Assembly: GCF_000620085.1 (NCBI RefSeq)
Contig: NZ_JHVJ01000003.1
Location: 248,001-312,000 of the forward strand
DNA: 64,000 bases
Origin: Marinobacterium jannaschii DSM 6295
Lineage (GTDB): Bacteria > Pseudomonadota > Gammaproteobacteria > Pseudomonadales > Balneatricaceae
Reading direction: 5' to 3'
The position numbers were made by a program, and so were the translations under genes. The notes below the pieces were generated by a model that was not told the origin of the DNA, searched no databases, and was given only the letters and a program-made list of their open reading frames with translations. Below, one piece after another: positions 13,996-33,792 of the stretch (the first letter of the stretch is position 1; the number at the start of each line of letters is the position of its first letter).

Positions 13996-14964
13996 TTACA
14001 CAGTGTCCTTCGCCTCGCGGGCTTTAACCTCCTGATACCAGAGGTCGTGATGCTGCTTTGCCCAGGTTTCATCAACCTGTCCCGTGGTCATTCCCTCCAG
14101 TGCACCTTCAGTCCCGAGGGTACCGATATAGATGTGGCCCAGGGAGGCTGCGATCAGGATCAGTGAGCCTGCGGCATGCACCAGGTTGGCCCATTGCATG
14201 GTGTTGCGAACCTGATCGAAGTTGGGGAAGTCCAGGATCAGTCCGCTGACGCAGACGGCGATGCCAAACAGGGTCAGCAGCCAGAACCAGATTTTTTCAC
14301 CACCATTCATATAGCCTGCGCTGGGGTGGGCGTTGCCGATAATGCCGCCGCCTTTGATAAACCAGGTCAGGTCGGTGCGGTTAAAGACGTTGTGCTTCAT
14401 CCAGCGCAGGATCATCAGCAGCAGGCCGAGCACAAACAGCGGGCCCAGATAGTTGTGGGCTAGCTTGCAGGCCAGCATATAACTGGCCCAGAGGCCGTCA
14501 CCCATGACGGACTTCAGTACAAACTTGCCATAGAGCAGGCTCAGGCCGGAAATCCCCAGAATGATAAACAGGATCGCGACCGTCCAGTGGTTAGCCCGGT
14601 CTAGTCGTGACCAGCGCTGGATGGTGTTGCCGCTGCGTGGGGCATCCAGCTTCTTCTGACCGACGATCAGGTAGAAGATCGCCAGCAGACCCAGGGTGCC
14701 GCCGACAGCGAATGCCCCGGCCGGGGTGATCCATTGATTGCGCCAGTAGCGCCAGTAATCGCCCTGCACATTGATCAGGTTGCCCGCTTCAGCCGTGCTG
14801 GATTGGGTAGTGCCGTTTTCGCCCTGACGGATCACCTGCCAGTATTCGGCTCCGGCAAACGCCGCCACGCGCTGCTCGGACGGCACTGAATCTTCGGCCT
14901 TAACAGGCAGGATGATCAGGCTGATAAGCAGGGCGGCCAGCTTGAGTAAGAGTTTTATCTGCAT
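13996..14964 (-). CDS. fdhC: Formate dehydrogenase cytochrome b556 (gamma) subunit
   Basis: 322 residues: a signal peptide (about 1-23), an 80-residue periplasmic segment, then five membrane helices. It ends in the FdnI/FdoI-type cytochrome b fold, with RLDRANHWTVAILFIILG, MLACKLAHNYLG and LVHAAGSLILIAAS supplying haem-b histidines. It passes electrons from the iron-sulfur subunit to quinone in the inner membrane. It is the last gene of the fdh operon, 57 bp after fdhB. The extra N-terminal periplasmic segment is typical of the type-3 enzymes with a Tat-accessory gene, not of E. coli FdnI. Confidence 0.92.
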   Translation of the reverse strand: MQIKLLLKLAALLISLIILPVKAEDSVPSEQRVAAFAGAEYWQVIRQGENGTTQSSTAEAGNLINVQGDYWRYWRNQWITPAGAFAVGGTLGLLAIFYLIVGQKKLDAPRSGNTIQRWSRLDRANHWTVAILFIILGISGLSLLYGKFVLKSVMGDGLWASYMLACKLAHNYLGPLFVLGLLLMILRWMKHNVFNRTDLTWFIKGGGIIGNAHPSAGYMNGGEKIWFWLLTLFGIAVCVSGLILDFPNFDQVRNTMQWANLVHAAGSLILIAASLGHIYIGTLGTEGALEGMTTGQVDETWAKQHHDLWYQEVKAREAKDTV

Positions 14965-15021
14965 AGAACTGTTCCGACAGAGGCCGGCGACACTCAGGTG
15001 CGCACCGGCCTTATTACGCCC

Positions 15022-15636
15022 TTAGGCCTTTGGCTGGGCCGCATCGTAGGCCAGCTCTTCAGCCGACCCGTTGCTGGCCCAGGCACCGTCGGCGTGGCCA
15101 CGGTAGATCACCCGCTCGCGGAAGATATCGGATACCTTATCCGCATCGCCCGCCAGCAGGGCCTTGGTGGAGCACATCTCGGCACACATCGGCAGCTTGC
15201 CCTCGGCGATACGGTTGGCACCGTACTTGGCTTTCTCCTCCGGGCTATGATCCTCCTCCGGGCCACCGGCGCAGAAGGTGCACTTATCCATCTTGCCGCG
15301 CTCGCCGAAAGAGGATTTGCTTGGAAACTGCGGGGCACCGAATGGGCAGGCGAAGAGGCAGTAACCGCAACCGATGCAGGCATCCTTGTTGTGCAGCACG
15401 ATGCCGTCGTCGGTCTTGTAGAAGCAGTCGGTCGGGCAGACCGCCATACAAGGGGCGTCGGAGCAGTGCATGCAGGCGACGGAGATGGAGGTCTCATCCG
15501 GCAGGCCGTCGTTGACGGTGACTACGCGGCGGCGGTTGACGCCCCATTCCACTTCGTTTTCGTTCTTACAGGCGGTGACGCAGCCGTTACACTCGATGCA
15601 ACGCTTGGAGTCACAGAGAAATTTCATATTAGCCAT
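15022..15636 (-). CDS. fdhB: Formate dehydrogenase iron-sulfur (beta) subunit
   Basis: 204 residues. Cysteine sets for four [4Fe-4S] clusters are visible: CIECNGCVTAC, CMHCSDAPCMAVCP, CIGCGYCLFACP and CTFCAG...CAEMC. There is no membrane anchor or Tat signal, so it should be exported as a complex with FdhA, whose signal carries it. Length fits the short fdh3B class, not the longer FdnH/FdoH with a C-terminal TM helix. It sits 14 bp after fdhA and 57 bp before fdhC. Confidence 0.95.
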   Translation of the reverse strand: MANMKFLCDSKRCIECNGCVTACKNENEVEWGVNRRRVVTVNDGLPDETSISVACMHCSDAPCMAVCPTDCFYKTDDGIVLHNKDACIGCGYCLFACPFGAPQFPSKSSFGERGKMDKCTFCAGGPEEDHSPEEKAKYGANRIAEGKLPMCAEMCSTKALLAGDADKVSDIFRERVIYRGHADGAWASNGSAEELAYDAAQPKA

Positions 15637-15650
15637 GTTCTGTTATCTCC

Positions 15651-18509
15651 TCAGGCGCTGGCTTTTTCGATACGGCACAGGGTCACTTTGGTCTCCTGCA
15701 TATTGGTGACAGGGTCATAGCCATAGGTCATGGCGGTGTTAGCCGCCTCGCCGGTGACATATGGATCGGATCCCTGAGGGTATTTGTCGCGCAGGTCCTT
15801 ACCCTGGAAACGACCACCGAAGTGGAACGGGATAAAGGCCACGCCGCGATCGACCCGAGGGGTCACCAGTGCTTTCACCTTGATGCTGCCGCCCTCGGGG
15901 CCATGCACCCAGACATCCTCGCCGTCGCGGAAGCCAAGGGTGTTGGCATCGGCCGGATTGACCTCGACAAACATCTCCTGCTGCAGCTCGGCCAGCCAGG
16001 GGTTGGAGCGGCTCTCTTCGCCGCCGCCTTCATATTCCACCAGACGGCCGGAGGTGAGGATGATCGGATATTCACCGGAAACATCCTTATCCTGGATCGA
16101 CTTGTAGAGCGTCGGCAGGCGGTACATCGATTCGGAGTCATCCCAGGTCGGGTATTTGGCGACCAGATCGCGGCGTGGCGTGTAGAGCGGCTCACGGTGC
16201 AGCGGTACTTTGTCCGGGAAGGTCCAGACCACGGCGCGGGCCTTGGCGTTACCGAACGGGGCGCAGCCGTGCTTGATCGCGACGCGCTGGATGCCGCCGG
16301 AAAGGTCGGTCTTCCAGTTCTTACCCTCGGCTGCTTGTTTCTCCTCGGCGCTGAGGTCGTTCCACCAACCCAGCTGTTTCAGCAGCTTGTCGTTAAATTC
16401 CGGATAACCGTCGTTGATCTCAGAGCCCCTGGTGTAGGAACCTTCCGCCAGCAGGCTGATGCCATCGCGCTCGACACCGAATCGGGCACGGAATGGCAGG
16501 CCGCCCTCAGCCACCGGTTTACTGGTGTCGTAGAGAATCGGCGTACCCGGGTGGCCCATCTCGGCGCCGCCCCAGCACGGCCATGGCATGCCGTAGTATT
16601 CGCCATCCAGCGGGCCGCCTTCGCCTTTCAGGGTATCGAAGTTGAAGGTGTGCCAGTTTTGCTGGTGGGCCTTGAGGCGTTCCGGACTCTGGCCGGTGTA
16701 ACCGATGGTCCACATGCCGGCATTGAATTCACGGGTGATATCCTCGATCAGTGGCTGGCTGCCATTGACCTTGATGTTCTTAAACAGCTGCTCGCCGAAG
16801 CCCAGCTTGTGCGAGAACAGGTACATGATCTCGTGGTCGGGCTTGGATTCGAACAGCGGCTCGATCACCTGGTCGCGCCATTGCAAAGAGCGGTTGGAAG
16901 CGGTGACGGAGCCGTAGCTTTCGAACTGGGTGGTGGCAGGCAGCAGGTAGACGCCGTCCTTGCGGTCGTGCATTACGGCGGCGTGGGTCGGATACGGATC
17001 GACGATCACCATCAGATCCAGCTTCTCCATCGCCTTTTTCATCTCGACGCCGCGGGTCTGGGAGTTCACCGCGTGTCCCCAGTAGAACATCGCACGGATG
17101 TTATCTTTCTGGTCCATGCGGGTCTTCTCTTCCAGTACGCCATCAACCCAGCGCGATACCGGAATGCCCTTGTTGTTGATCGGCTTCAGCTTCTGATAGA
17201 CCTGCGGGTCGAAGCGGCCTTTGATCCAGTCAACGTCGAGGTTCCAGACTTTGGCCCAGTGTTTCCAGGCGCCGTCGGAGAGGCCGTAGTAACCGGGCAG
17301 GGTGTGGGAAAGTACGCCCAGGTCGGTGGCGCCCTGCACGTTGTCGTGGCCACGGAAGATGTTGGTACCGCCGCCGGAGATGCCCATATTGCCCAAGGCC
17401 AGCATCAGGATGCAGTAGGCACGGGTATTGTTGTTACCGGTGGTGTGCTGGGTGCCGCCCATACACCAGATTACGGTGCCGGGACGGTTTTCCGCCAGCA
17501 TCCGTGCTGCGTGCTTTATCTCCTGCTCGCTGGCACCGGTGACATCCTCAACCTTTTCCGGTGTCCAGTTGGCGACCTCGGCGCGGACCTCGTCCATACC
17601 GTATACGCGCTGGCGGATAAATTGCTTGTCCTCCCAGCCGTTCTCGAAGATGTGCCACAGCAGGCCCCAGATAAAGGCCACATCGGAGCCCGGGCGGATA
17701 CGCACATAGTCGTTGCACTTGGCGGCGGTGCGGGTGAAACGCGGATCGACACAGATCATATGCGCCTTGTTGCGTTCCTTAGCGCGCAGGATATGCTGCA
17801 TCGCCACCGGGTGGGCTTCGGCCGGGTTGGAACCGATCAGCAGGATCGACTTGCAGAAGTGGATATCGTTGAAGGAGTTGGTCATAGCGCCGTAACCCCA
17901 GGTATTTGCCACACCCGCCACCGTGGTGGAGTGACAGATACGTGCCTGATGGTCGACGTTGTTGGTGCCCCAGAGAGCGGCAAACTTACGGAACAGGTAG
18001 GCCTGTTCATTGCTGAACTTGGCGGAGCCGAGCAAGTAGATTGAGTCCGGGCCAGACTCCTGGCGGATCTGCAACATCTTGTCGCCGATATCGCTGATCG
18101 CCTGATCCCAGCTGACTTTCTGCCACTTACCGTTTTCCAGCTTCATCGGGTATTTCAGGCGGCGGTCGCCATGACCGTGCTCACGCAGGGCCGCACCCTT
18201 GGCACAGTGACCTCCGGCATTGAAGGGGTGGTCGAAGGCCGGTTCCTGGCCGGTCCAGACGCCGTTCTGGACTTCGGCATAGACGCCACAGCCGACAGAA
18301 CAGTGGGAACAGATGGTGCGTTTTACTTCGGTGGGAACGTTGTGTGCTACTGTTTTCGCCTGGGCTTGTTGCATCATGCCCGGCGCCATCATGCTGGCAG
18401 CAGCGACGCCACCGGTGGCAATACCGCTGTTCTTGAGGAAACGGCGGCGGCTCAGGCCAAGGCCCGCTGTGGCTGCAGCAGGCTGATCAGATTTTTTTGT
18501 CAGTCGCAT
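15651..18509 (-). CDS. fdhA: Formate dehydrogenase catalytic (alpha) subunit, Mo/W-bis-MGD, Cys type
   Basis: 952 residues. The Tat signal is SRRRFLKNSG at 20-29, with cleavage near QAQAK. The [4Fe-4S] ligands are C67, C70, C74 and C102. The active-site ligand is C192 in QARICHSTTVAG, where E. coli FdnG has selenocysteine, so this is the Cys form and needs no selenium. The adjacent His (ICH) is conserved. The C-terminal molydopterin-binding domain (TSGRLVEYEGGGEESRS) is complete. It oxidises formate to CO2 on the periplasmic side. The cofactor is probably matched by the tup, mob, moe and moa genes at 33.8-38.9 kb. Mo versus W use cannot be read from the sequence. Confidence 0.96.
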   Translation of the reverse strand: MRLTKKSDQPAAATAGLGLSRRRFLKNSGIATGGVAAASMMAPGMMQQAQAKTVAHNVPTEVKRTICSHCSVGCGVYAEVQNGVWTGQEPAFDHPFNAGGHCAKGAALREHGHGDRRLKYPMKLENGKWQKVSWDQAISDIGDKMLQIRQESGPDSIYLLGSAKFSNEQAYLFRKFAALWGTNNVDHQARICHSTTVAGVANTWGYGAMTNSFNDIHFCKSILLIGSNPAEAHPVAMQHILRAKERNKAHMICVDPRFTRTAAKCNDYVRIRPGSDVAFIWGLLWHIFENGWEDKQFIRQRVYGMDEVRAEVANWTPEKVEDVTGASEQEIKHAARMLAENRPGTVIWCMGGTQHTTGNNNTRAYCILMLALGNMGISGGGTNIFRGHDNVQGATDLGVLSHTLPGYYGLSDGAWKHWAKVWNLDVDWIKGRFDPQVYQKLKPINNKGIPVSRWVDGVLEEKTRMDQKDNIRAMFYWGHAVNSQTRGVEMKKAMEKLDLMVIVDPYPTHAAVMHDRKDGVYLLPATTQFESYGSVTASNRSLQWRDQVIEPLFESKPDHEIMYLFSHKLGFGEQLFKNIKVNGSQPLIEDITREFNAGMWTIGYTGQSPERLKAHQQNWHTFNFDTLKGEGGPLDGEYYGMPWPCWGGAEMGHPGTPILYDTSKPVAEGGLPFRARFGVERDGISLLAEGSYTRGSEINDGYPEFNDKLLKQLGWWNDLSAEEKQAAEGKNWKTDLSGGIQRVAIKHGCAPFGNAKARAVVWTFPDKVPLHREPLYTPRRDLVAKYPTWDDSESMYRLPTLYKSIQDKDVSGEYPIILTSGRLVEYEGGGEESRSNPWLAELQQEMFVEVNPADANTLGFRDGEDVWVHGPEGGSIKVKALVTPRVDRGVAFIPFHFGGRFQGKDLRDKYPQGSDPYVTGEAANTAMTYGYDPVTNMQETKVTLCRIEKASA

Positions 18510-18529
18510 CGTGTCTTCCTTACGGCGCT

Positions 18530-18733
18530 TCAGTTGCGGGCAGAGTCGTAATAGCTGCGGATATGATCGGTCTCACGGTAACCGCTGCTGTTGTCGGCTG
18601 GTTCTTCGGGGGCAGGGGCCTGCGCCTGTACCTGGGAGGCGAGGGTGGCCGCACCTACGGCACCTCCCGCCAGGCCGAGCTTCTTCAGGAAGCTGCGGCG
18701 GCCATTGTCGGGCCGGTTTGTCTTCTGGCTCAT
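18530..18733 (-). CDS. Small Tat-signal protein of formate dehydrogenase clusters
   Basis: 67 residues: a Tat signal (GRRSFLKKLG then AGGAVGAATLASQVQAQA) and a short polar tail (DNSSGYRETDHIRSYYDSARN). It matches the 'formate dehydrogenase region TAT target' family found just ahead of fdhA in type-3 clusters. CGGAGAG lies before the ATG. It is probably a small periplasmic accessory or chaperone-like subunit; its biochemical role is not established. It sits 20 bp before fdhA. Confidence 0.9.
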   Translation of the reverse strand: MSQKTNRPDNGRRSFLKKLGLAGGAVGAATLASQVQAQAPAPEEPADNSSGYRETDHIRSYYDSARN

Positions 18734-18758
18734 GTTTCTCTCCGCTTGTTATTGTTAC

Positions 18759-19021
18759 GGAACCTGCGAACAAGTCTGAGACTTCCTCTGCGGGCGATAA
18801 AATGACTTAACGCGCGAATGGCTGCGCAGCGAAATGACGAGTCCTTTCCAAGCAGCCAGACAAAGCAGTAAGTTGTTTTAGCGCCCGCCCTTCGGGGCCT
18901 TGAGAGCCATCCAATATCTGCGTTAGCGATTTTCGTCAGGCAACCAGCATGACTGTAATCGCTGCCTTGATCTTGAATGGCTCTAAAGGCCAGAGTCGTT
19001 TCAGACTTATTCGCAGATTCC
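18759..19021. repeat. 263-bp inverted-repeat-bounded element inside the fdh operon
   Basis: The ends 18759-18779 and 19001-19021 are 21-bp inverted repeats matching at 19 of 21 positions (plus-strand right end TCAGACTTATTCGCAG...). Inside lies a second long imperfect hairpin: arms 18903-18918 and 18969-18984 (AGAGCCAT ends, 14/16), continued by the perfect AGCGATT/AATCGCT at 18925-18931 and 18957-18963. It fills the whole gap between the TorD-like stop and the small Tat protein. No open frame of note lies in it. It could be a MITE-like insertion or a structured intercistronic RNA element. Confidence 0.75.
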
Positions 19022-19052
19022 TTTGCCGGTAACCGCTCACCGGTTTCTCTCT

Positions 19053-19691
19053 TCAGAACTGCAATGTGCTCTCAGCCGGGGCTGTGGGGGCGAGTCGCAG
19101 GTAGTGGTTCTCTTCCTGTTCATAGAAGGCGGTACCCAGCAGGGCCACGGTGCTGTAAAACAGGGCGTTGTCCGCATTCTGCAGATCCCGGAAGAAGCGC
19201 AGTGCCCAGGGGCTGAGGTGGCGCTTCCAGAACTGCATCTGCTGGCGGGCACTGAAACCGGAACTGATCATCATGCTCATCACCTCGCACTGGGCGGCGA
19301 TATGATCTTCCGGTTCCTTGATATCGGGCTGGCGCTCGTAGCCGAGCGAAGCCAGATCCTGGCGCAGGGTTGCCAGTGGCTTCTCCATCAGGGAGCCGGT
19401 GAGATACCAACAGCCAAAGGGCATCAGCTCACCGCGGCCGATACCGATAAACAGTTGCTGATACTCATCTCCGATCTGAGGCGGCTGGCTGTGTGAGGCG
19501 CTCAGGGCCAGTGCTGACCAGGCCCGGCTCATCGGGTTGTCTTCCTCTTCCGGCTCCAGTGTGGCCAGCCAGTCGAGTAGCGCAGCATCGGGTGCGCGGC
19601 GCAGCAGGCTGGCCAGCAGGGCGAAGATATCGGCGCGCAGGGCGTCCTGTTCGCTGATCGCTGCGGTGGTCTCTATCGCTGTCATGGTCAT
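19053..19691 (-). CDS. TorD-family molybdoenzyme chaperone
   Basis: 212 residues, all-helical, with the TorD/NarJ-type features: an ALRADIFALLASLLRRAPDA opening, a central DEYQQLFIGIGRGE (the family's conserved E/D-Y-xx-LF...P/G loop), and a late FWKRHLSPWALRFFRDL. These cytoplasmic chaperones bind the Tat signal of the catalytic subunit and help insert the molybdopterin cofactor before export. FdhA is the obvious client. It starts 3 bp after the polyferredoxin stop. Confidence 0.92.
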   Translation of the reverse strand: MTMTAIETTAAISEQDALRADIFALLASLLRRAPDAALLDWLATLEPEEEDNPMSRAWSALALSASHSQPPQIGDEYQQLFIGIGRGELMPFGCWYLTGSLMEKPLATLRQDLASLGYERQPDIKEPEDHIAAQCEVMSMMISSGFSARQQMQFWKRHLSPWALRFFRDLQNADNALFYSTVALLGTAFYEQEENHYLRLAPTAPAESTLQF

Positions 19692-19694
19692 GGC

Positions 19695-21371
19695 TCAGAT
19701 CTCCAGCTGCTTTTCCGGGTGGGCGGTCAGGTCCTGATAGATGTCCTGCACCCGGCAGTCTTCACACATCTTCAGGCGGTTGAGGGCTTCACCCTGAAAC
19801 ATCGGATGTCCCGCCAGCTTGTCGAGCATCTTTTCCACCGTGCTGCGCGGCGCAAAGGGCTTGCTGCAGCTGAGGCATTCGAAGGCGGGTTCCTGATGGA
19901 GCTGAAGCGGCTGGTCGCGCAGCGGGTCGAGGCGTAGTCGAGCCTGCAGCTCGATCGCATCTTCAGGACAGGCGGCATCACAGAGACCGCACTGCACGCA
20001 GTTGCGCTCGGTAAAGAATAGGGCCGGCGTTTCTCCGCCATCGGTCAGGGCCTGGGTAGGGCAAACGGCAACGCAGGAGACGCAGAGGGTGCAGCGTGAG
20101 CGATCAATGCTTACCTGACCAAAGGGAGCGCCCGCCGGCAGGGCGAGGACATCGCGGGATTGTTTTGTCTGAGTGGCTGTCTGGGCTGCCAGCTGGTCCA
20201 GAGCGCTAAGCAGCGTATCGCGCTTGGCGGCCGCCGGATTGAGCGCCAGGGAATGGAACCGCGCGGCGCTTTCCGGCGGCTGCCACAGGCTGAGGTCTGT
20301 ACTGTCGATCAGGCTGAGGCGGATGCCAGCCAGGTTCAGCCCTTCAAGCATCGCCCGGGTGATACAGATCTCCCGCTGCAACAACGCGCGCATCGACGCC
20401 GGTTGCTGCGGGGTGTCCAGTAGCAGAACCTGGCTGGCGCCCATGGCGAGGGCGGCCAGCCAGATCTCCTGACCGGCGGCCGCCAACTCCTCCAGCTCAA
20501 CCGGCAGCAGGTTACCCGGCAGCTGTTCAAACTGGCTCTCCAGAAGCTGGCGGCCGGCTTCACGATCGTGCAGGACGATGACGGCATCGCTGCCATCGGC
20601 GTCATAGTAGGCCTGCAACAGGTCGCGAATCTGGTCGATAATGCGCGACGGTTGCGGCAGGGCATAGCTGATGGCGCCGGTTGGGCAGGCCGTGCTGCAA
20701 CCACCCGCGCCGTGACAGAGGTGAGGATCGATATTGATCAGCTGCCGGATGGAACTGATCGCATCCGCCGGGCAGACATCAAGGCAGCGGGTGCAGCCGG
20801 TCTGGCCACGGCCACTATGGGCACAGATATCATTGTTGATGCGGAAATAGCGTGGCTTCTCAAACTGGCCGATATAGTCCGGTAGTTGTTGCAGCAGCTG
20901 CGCCAGCTGATCGGGATCGCCGTGGCAGTGGAAATAGCCCGCCGGAGCCAGCTCCGAATGAAACAGTGGTCTTTCACTCAGATCGAGAATCAGATCAAAA
21001 CGAGTACGGTGCTGTGCCAGCTGGGACAGCGATGCGTATTGACCATTGATCGCCACCTGCACCTCAAACTGTCCCATAAAGCCTTTAACGCTATGCAGTG
21101 GCATACGGAACAGCGGCATATCCGGTACCGCCGCCAGGGCATTTTGCAACTGCACTTCATCACTGTTCTGTACCGCTTGTGTCACATACAGGGTGATGCT
21201 GGCCATGCCTTTCAGCTGTGCTGCTGCGAGGCGGATCTGGTCCTCCGCACCAGCGATCAGCAGGTGTCCCTGTGTGTTATAGCTCACGGTCGCCGATGCC
21301 AGGCTCAGTGGCGGCAGCGCCTGTTGTCGGGCCTGCCGGCGGGCATCCCGGTTGATCTGCTCTTGTCTCAT
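19695..21371 (-). CDS. Poly-[4Fe-4S] ferredoxin-like protein of the formate dehydrogenase cluster
   Basis: 558 residues. A first ferredoxin pair is at about 185-245 (CTRCLDVCPADA and CHGAGGCSTACPTGA). A second pair lies at about 425-480 (CTLCVSCVAVCP and CVQCGLCDAACPEDA). A C-terminal CxxC...CxxC (CLSC and CEDC) looks like a zinc or rubredoxin-like site. The middle section resembles part of HdrA/MvhD-like or QmoC-associated domains (VLLLDTPQQPASM). There are no membrane spans, so it is cytoplasmic. It is regularly found in fdh3 clusters with DUF3305/3306 and TorD; its partner and reaction are unknown, presumably electron supply for maturation or formate-linked redox. Confidence 0.9.
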   Translation of the reverse strand: MRQEQINRDARRQARQQALPPLSLASATVSYNTQGHLLIAGAEDQIRLAAAQLKGMASITLYVTQAVQNSDEVQLQNALAAVPDMPLFRMPLHSVKGFMGQFEVQVAINGQYASLSQLAQHRTRFDLILDLSERPLFHSELAPAGYFHCHGDPDQLAQLLQQLPDYIGQFEKPRYFRINNDICAHSGRGQTGCTRCLDVCPADAISSIRQLINIDPHLCHGAGGCSTACPTGAISYALPQPSRIIDQIRDLLQAYYDADGSDAVIVLHDREAGRQLLESQFEQLPGNLLPVELEELAAAGQEIWLAALAMGASQVLLLDTPQQPASMRALLQREICITRAMLEGLNLAGIRLSLIDSTDLSLWQPPESAARFHSLALNPAAAKRDTLLSALDQLAAQTATQTKQSRDVLALPAGAPFGQVSIDRSRCTLCVSCVAVCPTQALTDGGETPALFFTERNCVQCGLCDAACPEDAIELQARLRLDPLRDQPLQLHQEPAFECLSCSKPFAPRSTVEKMLDKLAGHPMFQGEALNRLKMCEDCRVQDIYQDLTAHPEKQLEI

Positions 21372-21614
21372 TTCTCACCTCATCTCCGGTCAGCTCTTAA
21401 TAGGTTCTGGCTGAGCTGTCCCGGTGCAGGCTCTGCGGCCTGTCTGGTTATTAAAAGCAACTGCTGCTCCATAGTTGGCAGCAGTGAAGGGGGTTAAAGG
21501 CGGTTCAGGTCGGTTGCTTTCCGGGCTTTGCCCGGGCGCCTGCGTCAAACTGTCCCTGTCGCTGTTTTGCGCTGTATCAAAGCGGGGCAGTTCTGTTGCC
21601 TGACGGTGGGGCGC

Positions 21615-22166
21615 TCAGGCGTCCAGGTCTGCGTCACCGACCTCATCCGGACATTGATTCCATTGTTGTTTCGTCGCAGCTGCATGGGGCAACTGCTCTG
21701 CTTCTGCAGAGGATCCTTCTCCTGGCTGGGAAGCGGCTGTTTCAGTTTCTGGCTGGTGGTTGTCCTCAAGAGCGTCGCTGACCTTATCCAGGGCGGACTC
21801 CTCCTGCTGTTTTACCCAGCTGCGCAGCTGGGCGGCGGCTTCCTGAGTCAGCGCCTTCATCGTGCTGAAGTCCTCGTCATAGTCATTGAGTCCATCACGC
21901 ACGTTGAACTGGGGCAGGTGAAACAGTTTGCGCAGTGCCAGCTTGCGCAATTCATCGCTGACGCCCGGTGACAGGAAGGGACTGAAATCTGACGACTCAC
22001 CCAGCAACTCAACCTCCGGCATATCTTCGTCCGTGAGGGCTTCGGCTTCAGATGCCTCTTCCTGTTGCAGGGCTTCGGCTTCTGCATCTGGCCCGGCCTG
22101 CTGTTCAGCCTGCGCAGCGGCCTTACGTCGCGACCAGCGGTTGATAAATCCGTCTTCAGTTTCCAC
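21615..22166 (-). CDS. DUF3306 protein of formate dehydrogenase cluster
   Basis: 183 residues, highly acidic, with the DUF3306 N-terminal signature (FINRWSRRKAAA) and a later DFSPFLSPGVSDELRKLALRKLF. The remainder is Ala/Glu/Gln-rich and likely disordered. DUF3306 occurs almost only beside fdh3 genes; no function is proved. The start is GTG and overlaps the DUF3305 stop by 11 bp, so the two are coupled. A 243-bp gap without a gene separates it from the polyferredoxin. Confidence 0.9.
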   Translation of the reverse strand: METEDGFINRWSRRKAAAQAEQQAGPDAEAEALQQEEASEAEALTDEDMPEVELLGESSDFSPFLSPGVSDELRKLALRKLFHLPQFNVRDGLNDYDEDFSTMKALTQEAAAQLRSWVKQQEESALDKVSDALEDNHQPETETAASQPGEGSSAEAEQLPHAAATKQQWNQCPDEVGDADLDA

Positions 22167-22599
22167 TGCTGCGCCCCCGTCCCTTTTTCTTTTTTTTACC
22201 TGCGTCGATCAGTTCGCCGTGGATGCCAAGGTAGGTGTCTATCCAGCACTGCACGGCTTCCGGCATCGGTGTTTCAAGCACCTGATGCTCACCATCCATA
22301 AAGGAAGCCGCTTCCTCCTGGCTGGCGGTGATATGTATCGGGGTGAGGCTGCCGTCGCTTTCATCTTCGCTGCAGAGCAGGAACAGGTGCGGCTGACGTG
22401 AATTCAGGTTAAAGCGGTAGGAGGTACGGTCATCGCGGTGCAGCTGCAGTTTGATCGCCGTATAGGCCGGATCGTCGTTCTGGTGTGGTAGCAGATCGGC
22501 GACGACCCAGCGCTCACTCTGCCAGCGGCCGCTCTGGCTGCTCTGCTGGCTGAGTCTGACCTGCAGTGGCCAGTGGTTGTCTGTTCTCAGGGTGGACAT
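22156..22599 (-). CDS. DUF3305 protein, first gene of the formate dehydrogenase operon
   Basis: 147 residues of the DUF3305 family (WPLQVRLSQQ... then RTSYRFNLNSRQPHLFLLC), with a basic Lys-rich tail (KKKKKGRGRSS). GGGAG stands 8 bases ahead of the ATG. It is the first cistron of the leftward fdh operon, about 120 bases after a sigma-54-type promoter; the leader holds five 15-bp repeats. The family is tied to type-3 formate dehydrogenases but its job is not known. Confidence 0.9.
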   Translation of the reverse strand: MSTLRTDNHWPLQVRLSQQSSQSGRWQSERWVVADLLPHQNDDPAYTAIKLQLHRDDRTSYRFNLNSRQPHLFLLCSEDESDGSLTPIHITASQEEAASFMDGEHQVLETPMPEAVQCWIDTYLGIHGELIDAGKKKKKGRGRSSGN

Positions 22600-22655
22600 C
22601 TTTGAGGCTCCCGTGCGCCGCCATTGTTAGCGGGGCTGATTGCAAGACGCAGTTT

Positions 22656-22730
22656 GGTCGGTAACTACTTGGTCAGTAATTATTTGGTTGGTCGCTACTT
22701 GATCGGTAGCTACTTGATCGGGAGTCACTG
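22656..22730. repeat. Five tandem 15-bp repeats in the DUF3305 leader
   Basis: Units start at 22656, 22671, 22686, 22701 and 22716. The consensus is about GRTCGGTARCTACTT, with the last unit most divergent. They cover the predicted transcription start and the 5' leader of the DUF3305 transcript and abut the -12 element at 22729-22744. Possible roles are a reiterated protein-binding site or a leader-RNA element. Confidence 0.85.
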
Positions 22731-22744
22731 CAATTGGCAGGCCA
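22729..22744 (-). promoter_or_regulatory. Sigma-54 promoter for the DUF3305-fdh operon
   Basis: On the minus strand TGGCCTG-CCAA-TTGCA: GG and GC are exactly 10 bases apart, and it matches the TGGCACG-N4-TTGCA consensus at 10 of 12 defined bases. The predicted start is near 22719. The dyad at 22842 is about 130 bp upstream, a usual distance for an enhancer-binding protein. Confidence 0.75.
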
Positions 22745-22828
22745 GTCAGCCTGAAGGGGCGTCAGAGCGGGTTTTTGCAGAGGGCAGGGTAGGCGTGTCC
22801 GGCATGGCTGGTATAAAAAGGGACAGTC

Positions 22829-22856
22829 GGTCAGTCGGCCTGGGACAAAATGTCCC
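22829..22856. promoter_or_regulatory. Predicted enhancer-binding site, fdh divergent region
   Basis: GGTCAGTCG (22829-22837), four bases, then the perfect dyad GGGACA-AAA-TGTCCC (22842-22856). The same 9-mer and dyad occur upstream of tupA at 33568-33596. A further half-site GGGACA is at 22820-22825. It lies between the two divergent sigma-54 promoters and could serve both. Confidence 0.8.
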
Positions 22857-22896: not shown

Positions 22897-22912
22897 GGGT
22901 ACGGTTCTTGCT
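22897..22912 (+). promoter_or_regulatory. Sigma-54 promoter for fdhD
   Basis: GGGTACG-GTTC-TTGCT: GG-N10-GC spacing is exact, and ACG plus TTGCT match the consensus. The predicted start is near 22922, 31 bases before the fdhD ATG. The dyad centre lies about 73 bases upstream of it, rather close for an enhancer site. Confidence 0.7.
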
Positions 22913-22952: not shown

Positions 22953-23804
22953 ATGTCCGAGCTGCAATGCCATGATCTGATCCTCAGTCAGGCCCAGGCC
23001 CAACTTACTGAAACCGTATCGGTGCTGGATGAGCGGGGAGAGCGCCGTCAGATTGAGATCGCCTGTGAGCGTCCGCTGACGATTTACCTCAATAAACGTG
23101 AGATTGTCACCCTTATGACGCTGGGCGATGACCCCGAAGCGCTGGTGCTGGGATACCTGCGTAACCAGGGATTTGTCCGGGCATTAACAGAGGTGGCGGC
23201 GATTCAGGTGGACTGGGAGGTGGAGTCTGCGGCTGTCGTCACCTACGGTGAGCCGGAGGGGCTGGAGGAAAAGCTGGCGCAGCGCACCGTCACCACAGGC
23301 TGCGGCCAGGGCACCATGTTCGGTAATCTGATGGAGCGGCTGACCGATATCTGCTTACCGACCCCGCAGGTACGCCAGAGCACTGTCTATCGGCTGCTGA
23401 AAAACCTCAGCGAGCACAACGATACTTACCGCAATGCCGGGGCCGTGCACGGTTGCGCTATCTGCGAAGGCGACAGGGTGGTGGCCTTTGTGGAAGATGT
23501 CGGCCGTCACAACGCGGTTGATACGCTGGCCGGACGGATGTGGCTGGATGGTATCAGTGCCGAGAACAAGCTGTTCTATACCACCGGGCGACTGACCTCG
23601 GAGATGGTGATTAAGGTCGCGCAGATGAATATCCCGGTGTTGCTGTCCCGATCCGGTGTCACCCAGATGGGACTGGCGCTGGCTCGGGAGTTAGGTATCA
23701 CGATGCTGGCGCGGGCCAAGGGACGGCATTTCCTGCTGTTTTCCGGTGCAACGACACTTGAATATGATGCCGCCGCTGACGCTGACCATGGTGGTCGGGG
23801 CTGA
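22953..23804 (+). CDS. fdhD: FdhD formate dehydrogenase sulfurtransferase
   Basis: 283 residues. FdhD moves sulfur from IscS to the bis-MGD cofactor of formate dehydrogenase. The family core RPLTIYLNKREIVTLMTLGDD-P and FVEDVGRHNAVDTLAGRM are clear. The usual CxxC sulfur-carrying pair is reduced to one cysteine here (C117 in TTGCGQGTM; the second position is Gly). An extra CAIC pair lies just ahead of the EDVGRHNA motif. AAGGAG stands 6 bases before the ATG. It overlaps the next gene by one base (TGATG) and runs divergently from the fdh operon. Confidence 0.94.
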   Translation: MSELQCHDLILSQAQAQLTETVSVLDERGERRQIEIACERPLTIYLNKREIVTLMTLGDDPEALVLGYLRNQGFVRALTEVAAIQVDWEVESAAVVTYGEPEGLEEKLAQRTVTTGCGQGTMFGNLMERLTDICLPTPQVRQSTVYRLLKNLSEHNDTYRNAGAVHGCAICEGDRVVAFVEDVGRHNAVDTLAGRMWLDGISAENKLFYTTGRLTSEMVIKVAQMNIPVLLSRSGVTQMGLALARELGITMLARAKGRHFLLFSGATTLEYDAAADADHGGRG

Positions 23805-24766
23805 TGGCAAAGCTACAGATGCCAGAGCTACAGCAGACGGAATCTGCGACGGCGCTGAGCAGGTCTGCGCGCAACGCAGATCCTTTTATGAATGTGCGTC
23901 AGGTCGCTGAGTATCTGCACCTGAACGAGAAGAAAGTCTATGCCATGGCGGCTGAAGGTACGATCCCGGCAACAAAGCTGACCGGTAAGTGGTTGTTTCC
24001 GCGGGTGCTGATCGATCGCTGGCTGCTGGAAAGCTGTCATAGCGGCCTGATGAACGACCGTCTGATTCTCAGCGGCAGTGATGACCCGCTGTTGCAGGCG
24101 GCGACTAACCGATTGACCCAGAAGCTGCGTACCCGGGCCCTGTTCAGCTATACGGTGACCGGTACCCGGCTCGGACTCGATCTTCTGGCACAAGGCCATG
24201 CTGATGCCTGTGCCATTCACTGGGGACGGGCTGAGGATAGTGACCGCCAGCATCCGGCGCTGTTGCAACAGTACAGTCAGTCGAAGCAGTGGATACTGGT
24301 TCACCTCTACCGGCGTCAACAGGGCTTTATTGTGCGCGAGACCGATTGTGAGCGGCTCAGGCAACCGCAACAGGCATTTGCCGCCACTACCCGCTGGGTT
24401 GTGCGTCAGGAGGGGGCCGGGTCGCAGCGATTCCTCGGCGAGTGGCTGGCCGGACATGCCCAGCCGATAGACAGCCTCAGTGTGGTACAGACTGCCTATG
24501 GCGAGAGTGAGGTAGCAAGCCTGATCTCCCGGGGGGAGGCCGATATCGGGCCTGGTACTCTCAGCGCGGCGATGGAGTTTGGCTTAAGGTTTATTCCGGT
24601 GTGTGAGGAAAACTACGATCTGGTCGTGCCGCGCAACGTCTACTTTCGGCGTCTGTTGCAGCAGCTGTTTGAGTTTCTGCAGGGACATGAAGGGGCCGCT
24701 CTCGCACTGCGGCTGCAGGGATATGATCTGAGCCGTTGCGGGCGTTTAGTCTGGAGTGCGGACTGA
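23804..24766 (+). CDS. HTH regulator with molybdate/PBP-like sensor domain
   Basis: 320 residues. The N-terminal excisionase/MerR-like winged helix (about 28-80) reads MNVRQVAEYLHLNEKKVYAMAAEGTIPATK. A PBP-like domain follows (PF12727 type, about 90-310), the fold of ModA-like periplasmic proteins moved into a cytoplasmic regulator. Motifs include GLDLLAQGHADACAIHW and GEADIGPGTLSAAMEFGL. Related proteins accompany molybdenum-enzyme genes and are thought to read molybdate, tungstate or cofactor state. Co-transcribed with fdhD. Its likely targets are this locus or the tup/moe genes; that is inference. Confidence 0.87.
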   Translation: MAKLQMPELQQTESATALSRSARNADPFMNVRQVAEYLHLNEKKVYAMAAEGTIPATKLTGKWLFPRVLIDRWLLESCHSGLMNDRLILSGSDDPLLQAATNRLTQKLRTRALFSYTVTGTRLGLDLLAQGHADACAIHWGRAEDSDRQHPALLQQYSQSKQWILVHLYRRQQGFIVRETDCERLRQPQQAFAATTRWVVRQEGAGSQRFLGEWLAGHAQPIDSLSVVQTAYGESEVASLISRGEADIGPGTLSAAMEFGLRFIPVCEENYDLVVPRNVYFRRLLQQLFEFLQGHEGAALALRLQGYDLSRCGRLVWSAD

Positions 24767-25242: not shown

Positions 25243-26928
25243 TTGCGAATTAAAAATCAGTTATTAGTAGGGCTATTATTGCTGTTTTGCGGTGCTGGTT
25301 TCGCCTTGTTTCTGACCCTGGGCCTGATTGTGCTGCCAAATGTCGAGCTGTTGGAAAAGCAGGCGCTGATCAAGGATATGGTGCGCGTAAAGAAGCAGCT
25401 TGAATCGACACAGAAGCAGCTTCATGCCTTTGCCCGCGACTATGCCGAGTGGGACGAAACCTACGCCTTTATGGATGATCGGAATGACAGCTTTGCGCAA
25501 TCAAATCTGGTCGCCGGTACCCTTAATGCCGCCAAAGCGGATATTCTGCTGCTGTTTGATCCCGATGGGCAGGCACGCGGCCAGCTTTATAGTCAGGCCG
25601 CAGTGGACCTGCTGGGTGAACTCCGGATTAGCCGCTATCTGCTGGAAGTGCCTGACTCGCCTGATTACGGATTTATCCGGATGGGAGATCAGGTGCTGAT
25701 GTTCGCCCAACAGCCAATTACCGATAGTGACGTGTCGCAGCCTCCCCGGGGCGTTTTGTTCTTCCTGAGATTTGTGGATTCCCAGATGGCCCGGTCCATA
25801 TCGGAAAACCTGGGGTTTGATGTATCACTCTCCATTGGAGACCGAAGTAGTGCCGAAGAACGGATTGAAGTCGGATTTTTCGGGGGCGACCGGAGCCTGG
25901 CATGGCACTCCATAGACCTGCTGCTGGAGCCGAGATTCGTACTCACCATACGTCTCGTGCAGAGCCGGCCGTTTTACGCTGCAGCCTGGGAAACAATGGC
26001 CTGGGCGCTGCTGTCTCTTCTGGTGATGGGCGGGCTGCTGTCCGTCGGTGTTTTCTACTATCTCAACCGCAACCTGGTCAGGCCTATTCAGGCTTTGAAA
26101 CAGCAGGCCGATCACTATGGAGAATCGGGTGATCCGACCATTCTGAAGACGCTTCGCCGCAGCGATGAACTTGGTATGCTGTCCGAAAGCTTCGTCAAAA
26201 TGGCGGCCAGCCTGGAGTCGCATCGGCGCTCGCTGGAAACGGAGCGACAGCAGTACCTTGATGCCAGTTACACCGATGCCTTAACCGGGCTGAAAAACCG
26301 CCGCTTTCTGGATCAGTATCTCAAGGACTGTTTTGCCAGGGGCGGGGCGGATACCTGGTTGTTTGTATTTTTCGATCTCGATCACTTCAAGCATGTAAAC
26401 GACCGCTATGGCCACGATGTGGGGGATATCGCCCTGAAGCAACTGGCCGGGCTGGTGCAAAGTCATAGCCGGGAAGGGGATATTGTCGTCCGCCAGGGCG
26501 GTGAGGAGTTCGTTCTGCTGTGTAACGGTTCCGATCTGGCCCAGGCCCGGCAGATCGTTGAGCGGATTCGGACCGAGGTCTCTGCTTACCTGTTCGGGCC
26601 ACCCGGTCGTGCCTTTCATATGACCTGCTCCCTGGGGTTCTGCCTTCTCAGGCCCGCGCAGTGCATAGAAGATATCAGTGTCTGGTATGAGATGTTGAAA
26701 GCTGCAGACCTGTCACTCTACGGGGCAAAGCGCAGCGGACGTAACACCTGGGTTGGCGTCAGTTGTCAGGACCAGGATGTACTCCGGAAAGACTTCTCTA
26801 AGGTTGATCTTCTGACAGAGGAGGTGGCAGCAGGAGTATTAACCTTGCATAGTTCTCTGCCCCTGGGACAGCCTGTCGACTGGCACAGTGGTGAGGCGCA
26901 GGTCACTAAATCGCTGAACCAGAGCTAG
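25243..26928 (+). CDS. Membrane diguanylate cyclase with CHASE4-type sensor
   Basis: 561 residues. TM1 is at about 8-30 and the extracytoplasmic CHASE4-like domain at about 45-235 (DYAEWDETYAFMDD is its hallmark). TM2 is at about 250-270, then HAMP and a GGDEF domain (about 340-505) with VRQGGEEF. REGD stands five residues before GGEEF, so the inhibitory I-site is present. A 50-residue tail follows. The start is TTG with GGCGG 8 bases upstream; no ATG fits. A TATAAT sits at 25199-25204, about 40 bases ahead, without a good -35. It makes c-di-GMP in response to an external signal. Confidence 0.92.
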   Translation: MRIKNQLLVGLLLLFCGAGFALFLTLGLIVLPNVELLEKQALIKDMVRVKKQLESTQKQLHAFARDYAEWDETYAFMDDRNDSFAQSNLVAGTLNAAKADILLLFDPDGQARGQLYSQAAVDLLGELRISRYLLEVPDSPDYGFIRMGDQVLMFAQQPITDSDVSQPPRGVLFFLRFVDSQMARSISENLGFDVSLSIGDRSSAEERIEVGFFGGDRSLAWHSIDLLLEPRFVLTIRLVQSRPFYAAAWETMAWALLSLLVMGGLLSVGVFYYLNRNLVRPIQALKQQADHYGESGDPTILKTLRRSDELGMLSESFVKMAASLESHRRSLETERQQYLDASYTDALTGLKNRRFLDQYLKDCFARGGADTWLFVFFDLDHFKHVNDRYGHDVGDIALKQLAGLVQSHSREGDIVVRQGGEEFVLLCNGSDLAQARQIVERIRTEVSAYLFGPPGRAFHMTCSLGFCLLRPAQCIEDISVWYEMLKAADLSLYGAKRSGRNTWVGVSCQDQDVLRKDFSKVDLLTEEVAAGVLTLHSSLPLGQPVDWHSGEAQVTKSLNQS

Positions 26929-27006
26929 TCAGGTTTACAGGCGCCAGCCGGAAGTCAGGCTGCCTAAAAGCCGGAGTTAAGATGGCTTGCCTGTCTCTGC
27001 CTCTGC

Positions 27007-30000: not shown

Positions 30001-32139
30001 CTATTCCTGCGCAATTAAGCGTTGATTGGTACGTTCGACCGACGACAGGCGATCGAGTATGCCGCTCAGTTTGTCGTCGCTTTTGCCGTTATGTTCGGCC
30101 TTGCTGGGTAACCAGACGGTAAAGCAGGTGCCTGCCCCCGGGGTCGATTCGACACTGATATCGCCCCCGTGTCGCCTGATCAGGCCATAGCTGACGGACA
30201 GTCCCAGCCCGGAGCCGCTTTTCTTGGTGGTAAAGAAAGGATCAAAGATCTGTTTCAGATTCTCGGCGGCAATGCCGGAGCCGCTGTCGCTGACCTGGAC
30301 GCTGGCGCCGATCAGTTGATGATTGTCGTCAAACCAGTCGCGGGTGATCAGACGGATCTGTCCGGGCCCTCCGAGCGCATGAATGGCATTGAGTATCAGG
30401 TTGACCAGTACCTGCTGAATCTGCTGTGGGTTTACTTCTACAGAGGCGTTGGCGTTGCATTGCAGGACGGCCTCGGCCTGGTGTTTATCCAGTGCATGGC
30501 GCACCAGCTGCAGAGTATCGGTTACCACCTGGTTGATGCTGAGAGACTCAAAGCTGTCCATCTGTCGAGAGGGCCTGCTGTACTGAAGCAGGTTGTTGAT
30601 CAGTGAACGAATGCGGTAGACCTGATCGATAATGGCATCGATTTCGGCCTGAACCGGCTCGGCATTTTCCTGCAGTTCTGCGGAAATCAGGTCAATATTG
30701 CCGAGAATCACCGCCGCCGGATTATTGATCTCGTGGGCGATGCCGGCTGTCAGTTCTCCCAGGGCGGCGAGCTTTTCCTTATCCAGCAGGCTGCGACGGG
30801 TGTTTTTCAGCAGCCGGATATGCTGTTTCAGCGCTTCGGTGCGTCGACGCAGGGAGCGCGTACGCCGCTCTACGGTGGCTTCCAGCAGATCGTTGGCGTG
30901 GCGGATCTCGCGCTCGCGCTGTTCCAGCAGTTCCAGCATGGCATCAAACTGGCGCGCCAGTTCGGTCAGTTCATCGTCACTGTGCAACGGGCCGATTCTC
31001 GGTTCCATATTGCCGTCGCGTACAGCGCGTACCACGGCCTGGATCTGCAGCAGCGGTTTCAGCAGCAGGCGGGTGTGATTCAGCACGACTATGCTGGCGA
31101 CCAGCATGATCAGGGCGATCATCAGGGCGGCTTCCAGCAGGGAACGGTAGTAGATCGCGGTAAAGGGGGCTTCATTGAAGCCGGCGTAGATCATGCCGAT
31201 CTTGCGCTGATTGAAATCCATGATCGGCTTGTAGGCGGAGATATACCAGTCATTGACGACAAAAGCCCGGTCTATCCAGGTGTCACCGGCCAGCAGTACC
31301 CGCTGCTTAACCTCATCGGATACCCGGGTGCCGATCGCCCGGCGGGTTGTGCTGAAGGAGCCGTTCTGAGCATCGTTAAGTGTGTGTGGCACATTGGTGC
31401 TGATACGGACATCATCCAGGAACAGGGTGACGGTACCGAGGCCGCCCGGAGGCAGGCTTCCCGCGCCGTAGACCAGATCCCGGATCTTATCGACGCTGGC
31501 AGTGGTATTGTTCAGCAGCAGGCCCGAATCCAGCACACCCAGAGGCTCTCCCTCAGCACTCATCACCGGATGAAGGGCGCGAAGCACCATGCCGCGCTGC
31601 TCGCGGATCTGAGGGGTTGGGGCTGCGTGGGGCGTTTCGATCAGTTGGATATCCGCTTGTGCGGCCAGTCCCGGGCGGATCTGCTGCAGTTCCTCGGGGC
31701 TGTGAACCGAGAAACCACTGCGGGATTTACCTTGCATCAGTTCGGGCAGTACCTGTTGCAGGGAGTTTCCTGTCAGTTCGGTGAGCCGGGGCCGTGGGAT
31801 AAATCGCAGAAAGCTCAGTTGGTGCTGTTGCCGGATCTGTTCCAGCTCCCGCCCCAACCGGATAAGATTATTGTCCCTGAGGTGGGGGTAAACGCGGTAG
31901 CTGCCGGCGATCTGCCGGAGGGTAGCCAGTTGCTCCTTTTGCACCAGTTGCAGGAAGCTGTCGGTGACAGCGAGGTCTGCGCTGACTTTCATATACAGCT
32001 GACGGTCGCTGTAGCTGTTGGTCCAGTAAGCCGCCATGATGGCAATGCCAATGGCCGTCACCAGCAGGGGTAACAGGGTCAGGAACAGCAGCTTGTTGCG
32101 CAGGCTTCGGTTGCCGGGCCACTTTAGCAGACGGTTCAT
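30001..32139 (-). CDS. Sensor histidine kinase with periplasmic Cache-type domain
   Basis: 712 residues. TM1 is at about 17-38, a large double-Cache-like periplasmic region runs from about 40 to 330, and TM2 is at about 338-358. HAMP, a coiled coil and HisKA (GIAHEINNPAAVILG) follow. The HATPase has NLILNAIHA, DSGSGI and GSGLGLSVS. It is the NtrB/DctB-like class that pairs with sigma-54 activators. Its start overlaps the stop of the activator gene by 4 bp, so they form one operon. The Cache domain usually binds small organic acids or amines; formate or a related carboxylate is a guess from the neighbouring regulon. Confidence 0.93.
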   Translation of the reverse strand: MNRLLKWPGNRSLRNKLLFLTLLPLLVTAIGIAIMAAYWTNSYSDRQLYMKVSADLAVTDSFLQLVQKEQLATLRQIAGSYRVYPHLRDNNLIRLGRELEQIRQQHQLSFLRFIPRPRLTELTGNSLQQVLPELMQGKSRSGFSVHSPEELQQIRPGLAAQADIQLIETPHAAPTPQIREQRGMVLRALHPVMSAEGEPLGVLDSGLLLNNTTASVDKIRDLVYGAGSLPPGGLGTVTLFLDDVRISTNVPHTLNDAQNGSFSTTRRAIGTRVSDEVKQRVLLAGDTWIDRAFVVNDWYISAYKPIMDFNQRKIGMIYAGFNEAPFTAIYYRSLLEAALMIALIMLVASIVVLNHTRLLLKPLLQIQAVVRAVRDGNMEPRIGPLHSDDELTELARQFDAMLELLEQREREIRHANDLLEATVERRTRSLRRRTEALKQHIRLLKNTRRSLLDKEKLAALGELTAGIAHEINNPAAVILGNIDLISAELQENAEPVQAEIDAIIDQVYRIRSLINNLLQYSRPSRQMDSFESLSINQVVTDTLQLVRHALDKHQAEAVLQCNANASVEVNPQQIQQVLVNLILNAIHALGGPGQIRLITRDWFDDNHQLIGASVQVSDSGSGIAAENLKQIFDPFFTTKKSGSGLGLSVSYGLIRRHGGDISVESTPGAGTCFTVWLPSKAEHNGKSDDKLSGILDRLSSVERTNQRLIAQE

Positions 32140-33524
32140 GCCGGTTGTCCGGTGTCTGCGACCGCCTGCCAGGCTGCCAGTTTGCGATCCAGCGTTTTGC
32201 GTGAAACCCCGAGCGCGCGGGCGGCGGATGACTTATTGCCCTGATGTTGTTCCAGCGTTCTTAAAATCTGGTATTTCTCCAGTTTTTCCAGGCTCCAGCC
32301 ATCGAAGCAGTCGTTTGATGCCGGCTCACTCGCGGCATTCGCTTCGTTAAAGTACTCAGCCGGTAACTTGCTCAGCAGGATGCAGCGCTCGATCAGGTTT
32401 TTCAGCTCACGGATATTGCCGGGCCAGGGATAATGCTGCAGAGCCAGCAAGTCGTCGTGACTGAAAGGGATCGCCGGTAATCCCAGCTCGCGAGATAACT
32501 TGGCGGAAAAGTGGTGTACCAGCTGGGGTATATCCTCTTTGCGATCACGCAACGGTGGCAGGGTAATGCTGAGCACATTGAGGCGGTAGTAGAGGTCTTC
32601 GCGGAAGCGACCGGCTGCTACTTCCTCCTTAAGATCACGATTGGTCGCGGCGATAATCCGCACATCAATAGTGGTTTCCTGTTCGCTGCCCACCGGTCGT
32701 ACCGCCTTCAGCTCCAGTGCCCGGAGTAGCTTAGCCTGCATCAGCAACGGCATTTCGCCGACTTCATCCAGGAACAGGGTGCCTCCGCTGGCAAAGTTAA
32801 ACAGGCCGTCGCGTGCCTTGTTGGCACCGGTAAAAGCCCCTTTGGTGTGTCCAAACAGCTCCGCTTCCAGCAGATCCGGGGCGATCGCCCCGCAGTTAAC
32901 CGGTACAAATGCCCCCTGACGCTTGCTGAGCTGGTGTAGCTGGCGTGCGGCCAGTTCCTTGCCCGTACCGGACTCGCCCTCGATCATCACCGCTGAAGGC
33001 GTCGGGGCGACGCGCTGAATCACCTCCTGAACCTGGGTAATAGCGCTGCTGGTGCCGATCATCTGGCTGGTCGGAAATGCCTGTTCGACTTCACGCTGCA
33101 GTACGAAGTTGGCGCGGCTGATGGCGCGCCTGTGCAGGCAGCGTTCGACAGCATTCATCATCTGCTCGAGCCGGAAGGGCTTGAGAATAAAGTCCGCAGC
33201 GCCTAAGCGCAGGGCGTTAATCGCTGTTTCCAGATCGGCATAGGCGGTCATAAAAATAACGTCACTACTGCCATCTCCCGGCTGCAGGGCCTCATGCCAC
33301 TCCATGCCGGAGCGGCCGGGCAGCTTGATATCGACAATCAACAGGTCGAAATGACAGCGTTTACGTAACTCCTCCGCCTCTTCGACGCTTCCCGCTACCT
33401 CGACCAGCGCAAAACGTTTGCCCAGTGCTTTTTGCAGAAAGCTCCGCATGCCCGCTTCGTCATCGACGATCAGTACAGATACGGCGGGGGTGCCGGCGGA
33501 TGGGAAATTCTGATCGCTGTGCAT
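32136..33524 (-). CDS. Sigma-54-dependent response regulator (NtrC family)
   Basis: 462 residues. The receiver (about 10-125) has [13 protein letters not shown]. The AAA+ domain (about 150-385) has Walker A GESGTGKE, sigma-54-contacting GAFTGA (in KGAFTGANK), Walker [11 protein letters not shown] and an R-finger. A Fis-type helix-turn-helix ends the protein ([19 protein letters not shown]). GGAG precedes the ATG. It is first in the operon with its kinase. The 310-bp gap shared with tupA holds the dyad elements and a sigma-54 promoter facing tupA, so this protein is the best candidate to bind them. Confidence 0.95.
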
Positions 33525-33567: not shown

Positions 33568-33626
33568 GGTCAGTCGCTGGTGGGACATTTTGTCCTGTTG
33601 GTTGTTGTGGTTGGACATTATGGCCT
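33568..33626. promoter_or_regulatory. Predicted enhancer-binding sites upstream of tupA
   Basis: GGTCAGTCG (33568-33576), five bases, then GGGACA-TTT-TGTCCT (33582-33596). A weaker dyad TGGACA-TTA-TGGCCT is at 33612-33626. The two dyads start exactly 30 bp apart, placing them on the same DNA face. The first copies the arrangement at 22829-22856. They lie about 180-215 bp upstream of the predicted tupA start, a usual range for enhancer-binding proteins. Confidence 0.78.
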
Positions 33627-33776: not shown

Positions 33777-33792
33777 TGGCATTCATATTGCT
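33777..33792 (+). promoter_or_regulatory. Sigma-54 promoter for tupA
   Basis: TGGCATT-CATA-TTGCT: exact GG-N10-GC spacing and 10 of 12 consensus bases (TGGCA and TTGCT complete). The predicted start near 33802 leaves a 30-base leader to the tupA ATG. Confidence 0.8.

Follow-up and report, generated by a model that had tools for sequence, protein, structure and literature searches.

A conserved palindrome upstream of sigma-54 promoters as the likely operator of an NtrC-type activator joining formate dehydrogenase, TupA-type uptake and cofactor genes in Marinobacterium jannaschii

In the stretch of 64,000 nucleotides of Marinobacterium jannaschii DNA analysed here (the window), genes for formate dehydrogenase and genes for TupA-type uptake and cofactor synthesis are found at two places, and the locus raises the question of whether one operator and one activator join them. 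The original prediction was that they are joined through a composite element, made up of the 9-mer GGTCAGTCG and a palindrome, and a direct check of the window bears out the letters and coordinates of both copies. The first consists of GGTCAGTCG at 22829-22837, a 4-base gap and GGGACAAAATGTCCC at 22842-22856, while the second has the same 9-mer at 33568-33576, a 5-base gap and GGGACATTTTGTCCT at 33582-33596. Matches to GGGACANNNTGTCCY with zero mismatches are found in the window at these two palindromes only. Two further sites, a third palindrome (GGGACAGTTTGACGC) on the minus strand and a degenerate tandem copy (TGGACATTATGGCCT), were absent from the original prediction (Table 1). A tandem copy with at most three mismatches, 30 bp from the best site, is present in 14/14 loci of the nearest clade, the window included.

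Table 1. Sites, promoter boxes and genes of the locus (positions in the window).
Feature	Position	Strand	Remark
9-mer GGTCAGTCG	22829..22837	+	not conserved in relatives
9-mer GGTCAGTCG	33568..33576	+	not conserved in relatives
Palindrome GGGACA-AAA-TGTCCC	22842..22856	.	between divergent DUF3305 and fdhD genes; proposed upstream activating site
Palindrome GGGACA-TTT-TGTCCT	33582..33596	.	between activator gene and tupA; proposed upstream activating site
Third palindrome GGGACAGTTTGACGC	21542..21556	-	upstream of Fe-S/fdh operon; 79 bp from sigma-54 box, as in relatives
Degenerate tandem copy TGGACATTATGGCCT	33612..33626	+	30 bp from the 33582-33596 palindrome
Sigma-54 -24/-12 box of fdhD, GGGTACGGTTCTTGCT	22897..22912	+	kept in relatives
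Sigma-54 -24/-12 box of DUF3305 gene, TGGCCTGCCAATTGCA	22729..22744	-	kept in relatives
Sigma-54 -24/-12 box of tupA, TGGCATTCATATTGCT	33777..33792	+	kept in relatives
Sigma-54 -24/-12 box of Fe-S/fdh operon, TGGAGCAGCAGTTGCT	21456..21471	-	spacing kept in relatives
NtrC-type response regulator, proposed binder	32136..33524	-	receiver, AAA+ sigma-54 activator domain with GAFTGA, Fis-type HTH
Sensor histidine kinase with single-Cache domain	30001..32139	-	adjoins activator gene
tupABC-type ABC transporter, mobA, moeA, moaA	33834..38886	+	proposed target operon
fdhD and HTH_17/PBP_like gene	22953..24766	+	proposed target operon
DUF3306 and DUF3305 genes	21615..22599	-	proposed targets
4Fe-4S protein, nitrate-reductase-delta (NarJ-type) chaperone, formate-dehydrogenase alpha, cytochrome b561	13996..21371	-	proposed targets, operon extent inferred

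The products of the proposed target genes differ in how closely they fit their profiles. The tupA product is TupA-like only, scoring 233 bits where the NCBIfam cut-off is 400, and its specificity for tungstate is presumed. FdhD lies above the Pfam cut-off, with an NCBIfam score of 131 bits where 140.9 are required, while the formate dehydrogenase alpha subunit reaches 481 of 666 bits. The gene at 21615-22166 is presumably DUF3306, and DUF3305/DUF3306 genes are known to occur beside fdh operons (PMC4464133). The gene order of the locus is largely kept in relatives.

Conservation was followed in 85 regions, the window included: 32 between the activator gene and tupA (activator and mobA in the three f2 loci), 30 between DUF3305 and fdhD, and 23 between DUF3306 and the Fe-S gene. 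G056, with an activator fragment, was left out of all sets and G085 (fragment) out of the fdhD set; the Fe-S region of 8/10 g13 genomes was left out as the fetched stretches were too short. G344 is not part of the fdhD and Fe-S sets, since the two stretches fetched from it gave no FdhD. The relaxed motif GGGWCA-N3-TGWCCC, with A or T at position 4, was chosen after the relatives were seen. Between DUF3305 and fdhD it is found within one mismatch in 27 regions and within two in all 30; the corresponding counts are 21 and 29 of 32 on the activator side, and 6 and 19 of 23 for the Fe-S regions. Dinucleotide shuffling gives expectations of 0.05, 0.05 and 0.03 (activator, fdhD, Fe-S) within one mismatch, and of 0.81, 0.94 and 0.82 within two. 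No site within two mismatches was found in L137, L138 and L143 on the activator side, nor in L128, L143, L204 and L226 in the Fe-S set. In genus g13, 9/10 activator-side sites have two or three mismatches. In the 400 bp upstream of 16 activator homologues that are not linked to fdh, a palindrome with one mismatch was found once (L154), 0.03 being expected. The palindrome, conserved at these promoters, thus supports the view that the fdh, fdhD, tup and cofactor genes share a single operator.

The palindrome also tracks the activator gene across the genomes examined, in agreement with the proposed tie between the operator and the adjacent NtrC-type regulator. Whole genomes were scanned in a chosen set of 29, consisting of 14 of the nearest clade and G344, plus 14 without an activator orthologue. 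The strict motif with an AT spacer, GGGWCAWWWTGWCCC, occurs in 13/15 activator-positive and 0/14 activator-negative genomes; it is missing from G075 and G344, where the sites differ from the strict form. Among its 17 distinct places, 16 are at promoters of the proposed regulon, and the reversed-pattern control occurs once on each strand in 3/29 genomes. The remaining strict palindrome (G069) lies between genes read as TRAP-transporter genes in a 3-kb locus where no sigma-54 box scores 1.5 or more, and is probably unrelated. In six loci without an activator orthologue (L196-L201; g9, g14, g4) no palindrome was found, and 2/20 gene starts have a box scoring at least 2, which equals the random rate. 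In L203, where FdhD is 31% identical, there is nothing within one mismatch of the relaxed motif and one two-mismatch match to the original motif.

In the host genome the exact sequence GGGACANNNTGTCC occurs at seven distinct places, two of which are those described above. Four others lie inside ORFs, with products named by eye only, and are rejected as members of the regulon. The last is found upstream of a second mobA (L009:1501-1514, corresponding to G000:C11:15531-15544), the product of which is MobA by NCBIfam if read from an inner ATG. By eye, no correctly oriented sigma-54 box is seen there, and a terminator-like hairpin lies between GGGACANNNTGTCC and mobA.

At 60% identity or more, the activator is found in at least 29 of 116 family genomes among the matches listed; two of these matches are fragments (G056, G086), and short fragments elsewhere could be missed. 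FdhD, at 59% identity or more, is present in 28 of the 29 activator genomes listed and in 0 of the other 87, and the HTH/PBP gene (at least 48%) is found in the same 28 genomes as FdhD. None of the four genus-mates has an activator orthologue, their best matches being around 40% identical. An order-wide search of 390 genomes gave 11 with an activator match at E 1e-130 or better, six of them in the family. G344, of family f37, has an activator that is 66-67% identical and, in the same place, GGGACATAGTGTCCC, a perfect palindrome with a different spacer. In three f2 genomes, the site at fdhD is a perfect GGGTCA-N3-TGACCC, and copies with one mismatch lie between the activator gene and mobA. In each of the three families examined, the palindrome lies ahead of the activator gene. 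L191 is the one other match from outside the family, and its 4.3-kb locus contains neither an fdh gene nor a palindrome. L191 falls in a sister group of activator-kinase pairs (L145-L159 and L191) of 51-58% identity, 15 in family genomes and one elsewhere, where no fdhD or tupA homologue was found in the fetched stretches.

Both copies of the element had been placed in sigma-54 promoter regions, and boxes are indeed found where this implies. Chance matches are common, as the window holds 52 boxes of like quality where 43.8 are expected, and the window boxes therefore count as evidence only because relatives keep them. A box scoring at least 2 is present in 29/32 of the tupA- or mobA-side promoters, 28/30 of the fdhD promoters and 29/30 of the DUF3305 promoters, the baseline being 9.9% of 1000 random stretches of 350 bp for compared regions of 237-782 bp. 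For the Fe-S operon, the distance from site to box is 78-79 bp in 18/19 regions having both. Judged from this conservation across orthologous promoters, the -24/-12 boxes are probable sigma-54 promoter elements, and the palindrome upstream of them has the sequence features of an upstream activating sequence, as which it is proposed. Helical phasing of the site-to-box distances was dropped as evidence. The fits favour 11.1-11.3 bp over 10.5 at the fdhD and DUF3305 promoters and yield no distinct period at the tup promoter, and the genomes compared are related and so not independent of one another. By eye, a ggtcggtaactacttggt-like unit is seen to form imperfect direct repeats at 22655-22722 of the window, in the interval from the DUF3305 start to the sigma-54 box of this gene.

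By its sequence, the activator is an enhancer-binding protein of the two-component NtrC type, with Asp65 at the phosphoacceptor position of the receiver, GAFTGA, an HTH and an adjacent kinase. A kinase homologue lies beside the activator in 29/32 loci (28 in the family and L195; partial in L140 and L202). The best NCBIfam model is AtoC, with 388 of 714 bits, and none reaches its cut-off among the 25 of 110 matching models listed. A tree of 54 rows places the four fdh-linked rows from g10 with the 16 unlinked activators (support 91/85). Linkage to fdh therefore takes two label changes on this tree, which does not recover the linked activators as a single clade. The recognition helices differ modestly, linked activators having S or A before RKTL and unlinked ones mostly T. 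The f2 activators (L225, L226 and L227 in G116, G160 and G195) all have Asn at the phosphoacceptor position, their acidic triplet DDE is altered to DEG, DTA or DEC, and the receiver profile of L225 gives 27.9 bits, below the cut-off of 30.2. A similarity search of the 17-20 kb stretches of these three loci gave no kinase homologue; the palindromes are nonetheless kept.

The conserved site, the boxes, their spacing and the genes, and the co-occurrence with the activator are direct observations. Taken together, they make it quite probable that the activator encoded at 32136-33524 has GGGWCA-N3-TGWCCC as its upstream activating sequence, and that this sequence joins four promoters as one regulon. 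An activator dimer would bind each palindrome, with tandem sites 30-31 bp apart at the tup promoter. The adjacent Cache-domain kinase would phosphorylate the activator, which would then remodel sigma-54 polymerase at the promoters of tup-mob-moe-moa, fdhD-HTH/PBP, DUF3305-DUF3306 and the Fe-S/fdh operon. One regulon would in this way cover the enzyme itself together with metal uptake, cofactor building and FdhD sulfuration. For the input signal, formate and W/Mo status are both guesses. A more far-reaching version, which we regard as speculative, has a dedicated formate/tungsten regulon where the activator senses formate or metal outside the cell and jointly sets uptake, cofactor and enzyme; f2 would then have kept the operator, lost the receiver phosphosite and the adjoining kinase, and rewired control to an input that does not depend on phosphorylation, with the neighbouring PBP_like protein as one possibility.

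Other readings of the same sites have to be weighed against binding by the activator. The composite element could be one bipartite operator for two proteins or for an asymmetric complex, and in the host genome GGTCAGTCG-N3..7-GGGACA has exactly two matches in 5.18 Mb, both at this locus, and the reversed-pattern control has none. In relatives the halves are not kept together. The exact 9-mer is found in 0/82 homologous regions, and within 30 bp of 75 palindromes there is no match with 0-1 mismatch, the best matches having two (7), three (21), four (37) or five (10) mismatches. This rules out the 9-mer as half of a conserved element and makes a bipartite operator highly improbable. It also divides the outcome of the test proposed with the original prediction, namely conservation upstream of fdhD/DUF3305 and tupA and rarity elsewhere: the palindrome passes, going beyond chance, while the 9-mer fails and is a repeat within the host genome. 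GGTCA in the 9-mer resembles the loose half-site GGWCA, and the 9-mer may thus be a weak extra site; the four genus-mates searched have neither activator orthologue nor FdhD and so allow no within-genus comparison of its role. That the palindromes are RNA hairpins or terminators is less probable still. A hairpin with a stem of 6 bp and a loop of 3 bases is able to form, and 33576-33602 scores as terminator-like (one found, 0.5 expected), but neither 22842-22856 nor 21542-21556 is among the terminator-like sites listed. The palindromes lie upstream of sigma-54 boxes, two of the three between divergent genes, and the proposed transcripts would therefore exclude them. The drift of the half-site from GGGACA to GGGTCA and the fixed spacing to the -24 box fit binding by a protein.

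Which protein binds is a separate matter. The HTH_17/PBP_like protein (23804-24766) is a possible molybdate/tungstate-sensing regulator and, given its presence in the same 28 genomes as FdhD, a possible binder; it would then repress or tune the sigma-54 promoters, while the activator would bind elsewhere. Its gene lies beside fdhD, and a PBP_like domain joined to an HTH makes a plausible sensor, the sensing role being presumed. Against this stand three g9 loci (L196-L198) with tup genes and an HTH/PBP homologue (31-36%), two of the three also with fdhD, but without an activator orthologue: they have no palindrome within one mismatch of the relaxed motif and no sigma-54 box scoring at least 2 at the 14 gene starts scored. 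Their HTH/PBP homologues are distant, and may thus differ in specificity. The presence of the site upstream of the activator gene in every family examined also speaks for the activator, and the fixed 78-79 bp to the -24 box suits an enhancer. We therefore consider binding by the HTH/PBP protein unlikely. Sigma-54 promoters need an activator, the site tracks the activator gene and the box spacing is fixed, which makes the activator the most likely binder.

Enhancer-binding proteins of the NtrC/AtoC/ZraR type share the architecture described here, with a receiver, a GAFTGA AAA+ domain, a Fis-type HTH and an adjacent kinase, and act from palindromic sites upstream of -24/-12 promoters. We know of no member that has GGGWCA-N3-TGWCCC as its site. 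FhlA of E. coli is a sigma-54 activator of formate-linked genes, those of the formate hydrogenlyase regulon, but it belongs to the one-component type, binds formate and uses a different operator, while the activator in the window has a receiver domain. In Geobacter sulfurreducens the formate dehydrogenase operon GSU0777-0781, which includes fdhD, is RpoN-dependent and thus similar in its control; unlike here, the passages on this operon name no operator or cognate activator, and the main text does not contain the string 'tungst' (PMC2725144). Methylorubrum extorquens has moeA1-mobB-tupBCA, bringing together tungstate uptake, MoeA/MobB and FdhD for a tungsten formate dehydrogenase, but coordinated regulation is there inferred from clustering, and 'two-component' is absent from the main text (PMC13197769). 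A sigma-54 survey reports one COG whose sigma-54-regulated members include formate dehydrogenases (PMC12316311), and the Desulfovibrio sigma-54 regulome covers pyruvate formate-lyase regulators, with 'tungst' and 'fdh' absent from its main text (PMC4641369). Among the matches listed from the open-licence PMC literature, outside which most subscription literature lies, there is no description of this operator or regulon. With the present finding, an operator and four promoters become open to direct testing, along with a candidate activator. If true, it explains how metal uptake, cofactor synthesis and the formate dehydrogenase apo-enzyme stay in step, and the f2 variant would be a natural case where the operator of a response regulator is kept after loss of its phosphorylation site.

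Some minor features of the locus differ between the window and its relatives or recur among them. In the window, a GGDEF gene and a hybrid kinase gene (25243-29685) lie between the HTH/PBP gene and the kinase gene. The HTH/PBP gene and the kinase gene are direct neighbours in 12/13 nearest-clade relatives, and L122 has a GGDEF homologue between them. At 22815-22826, 22 bp from the fdhD palindrome, the window has an A-tract followed by GGGACAG, and AAAAAGGGRCAG is found upstream of this palindrome in 8/14 nearest-clade rows, as counted by eye in the alignment. The stretch is possibly an extra half-site or a bend.
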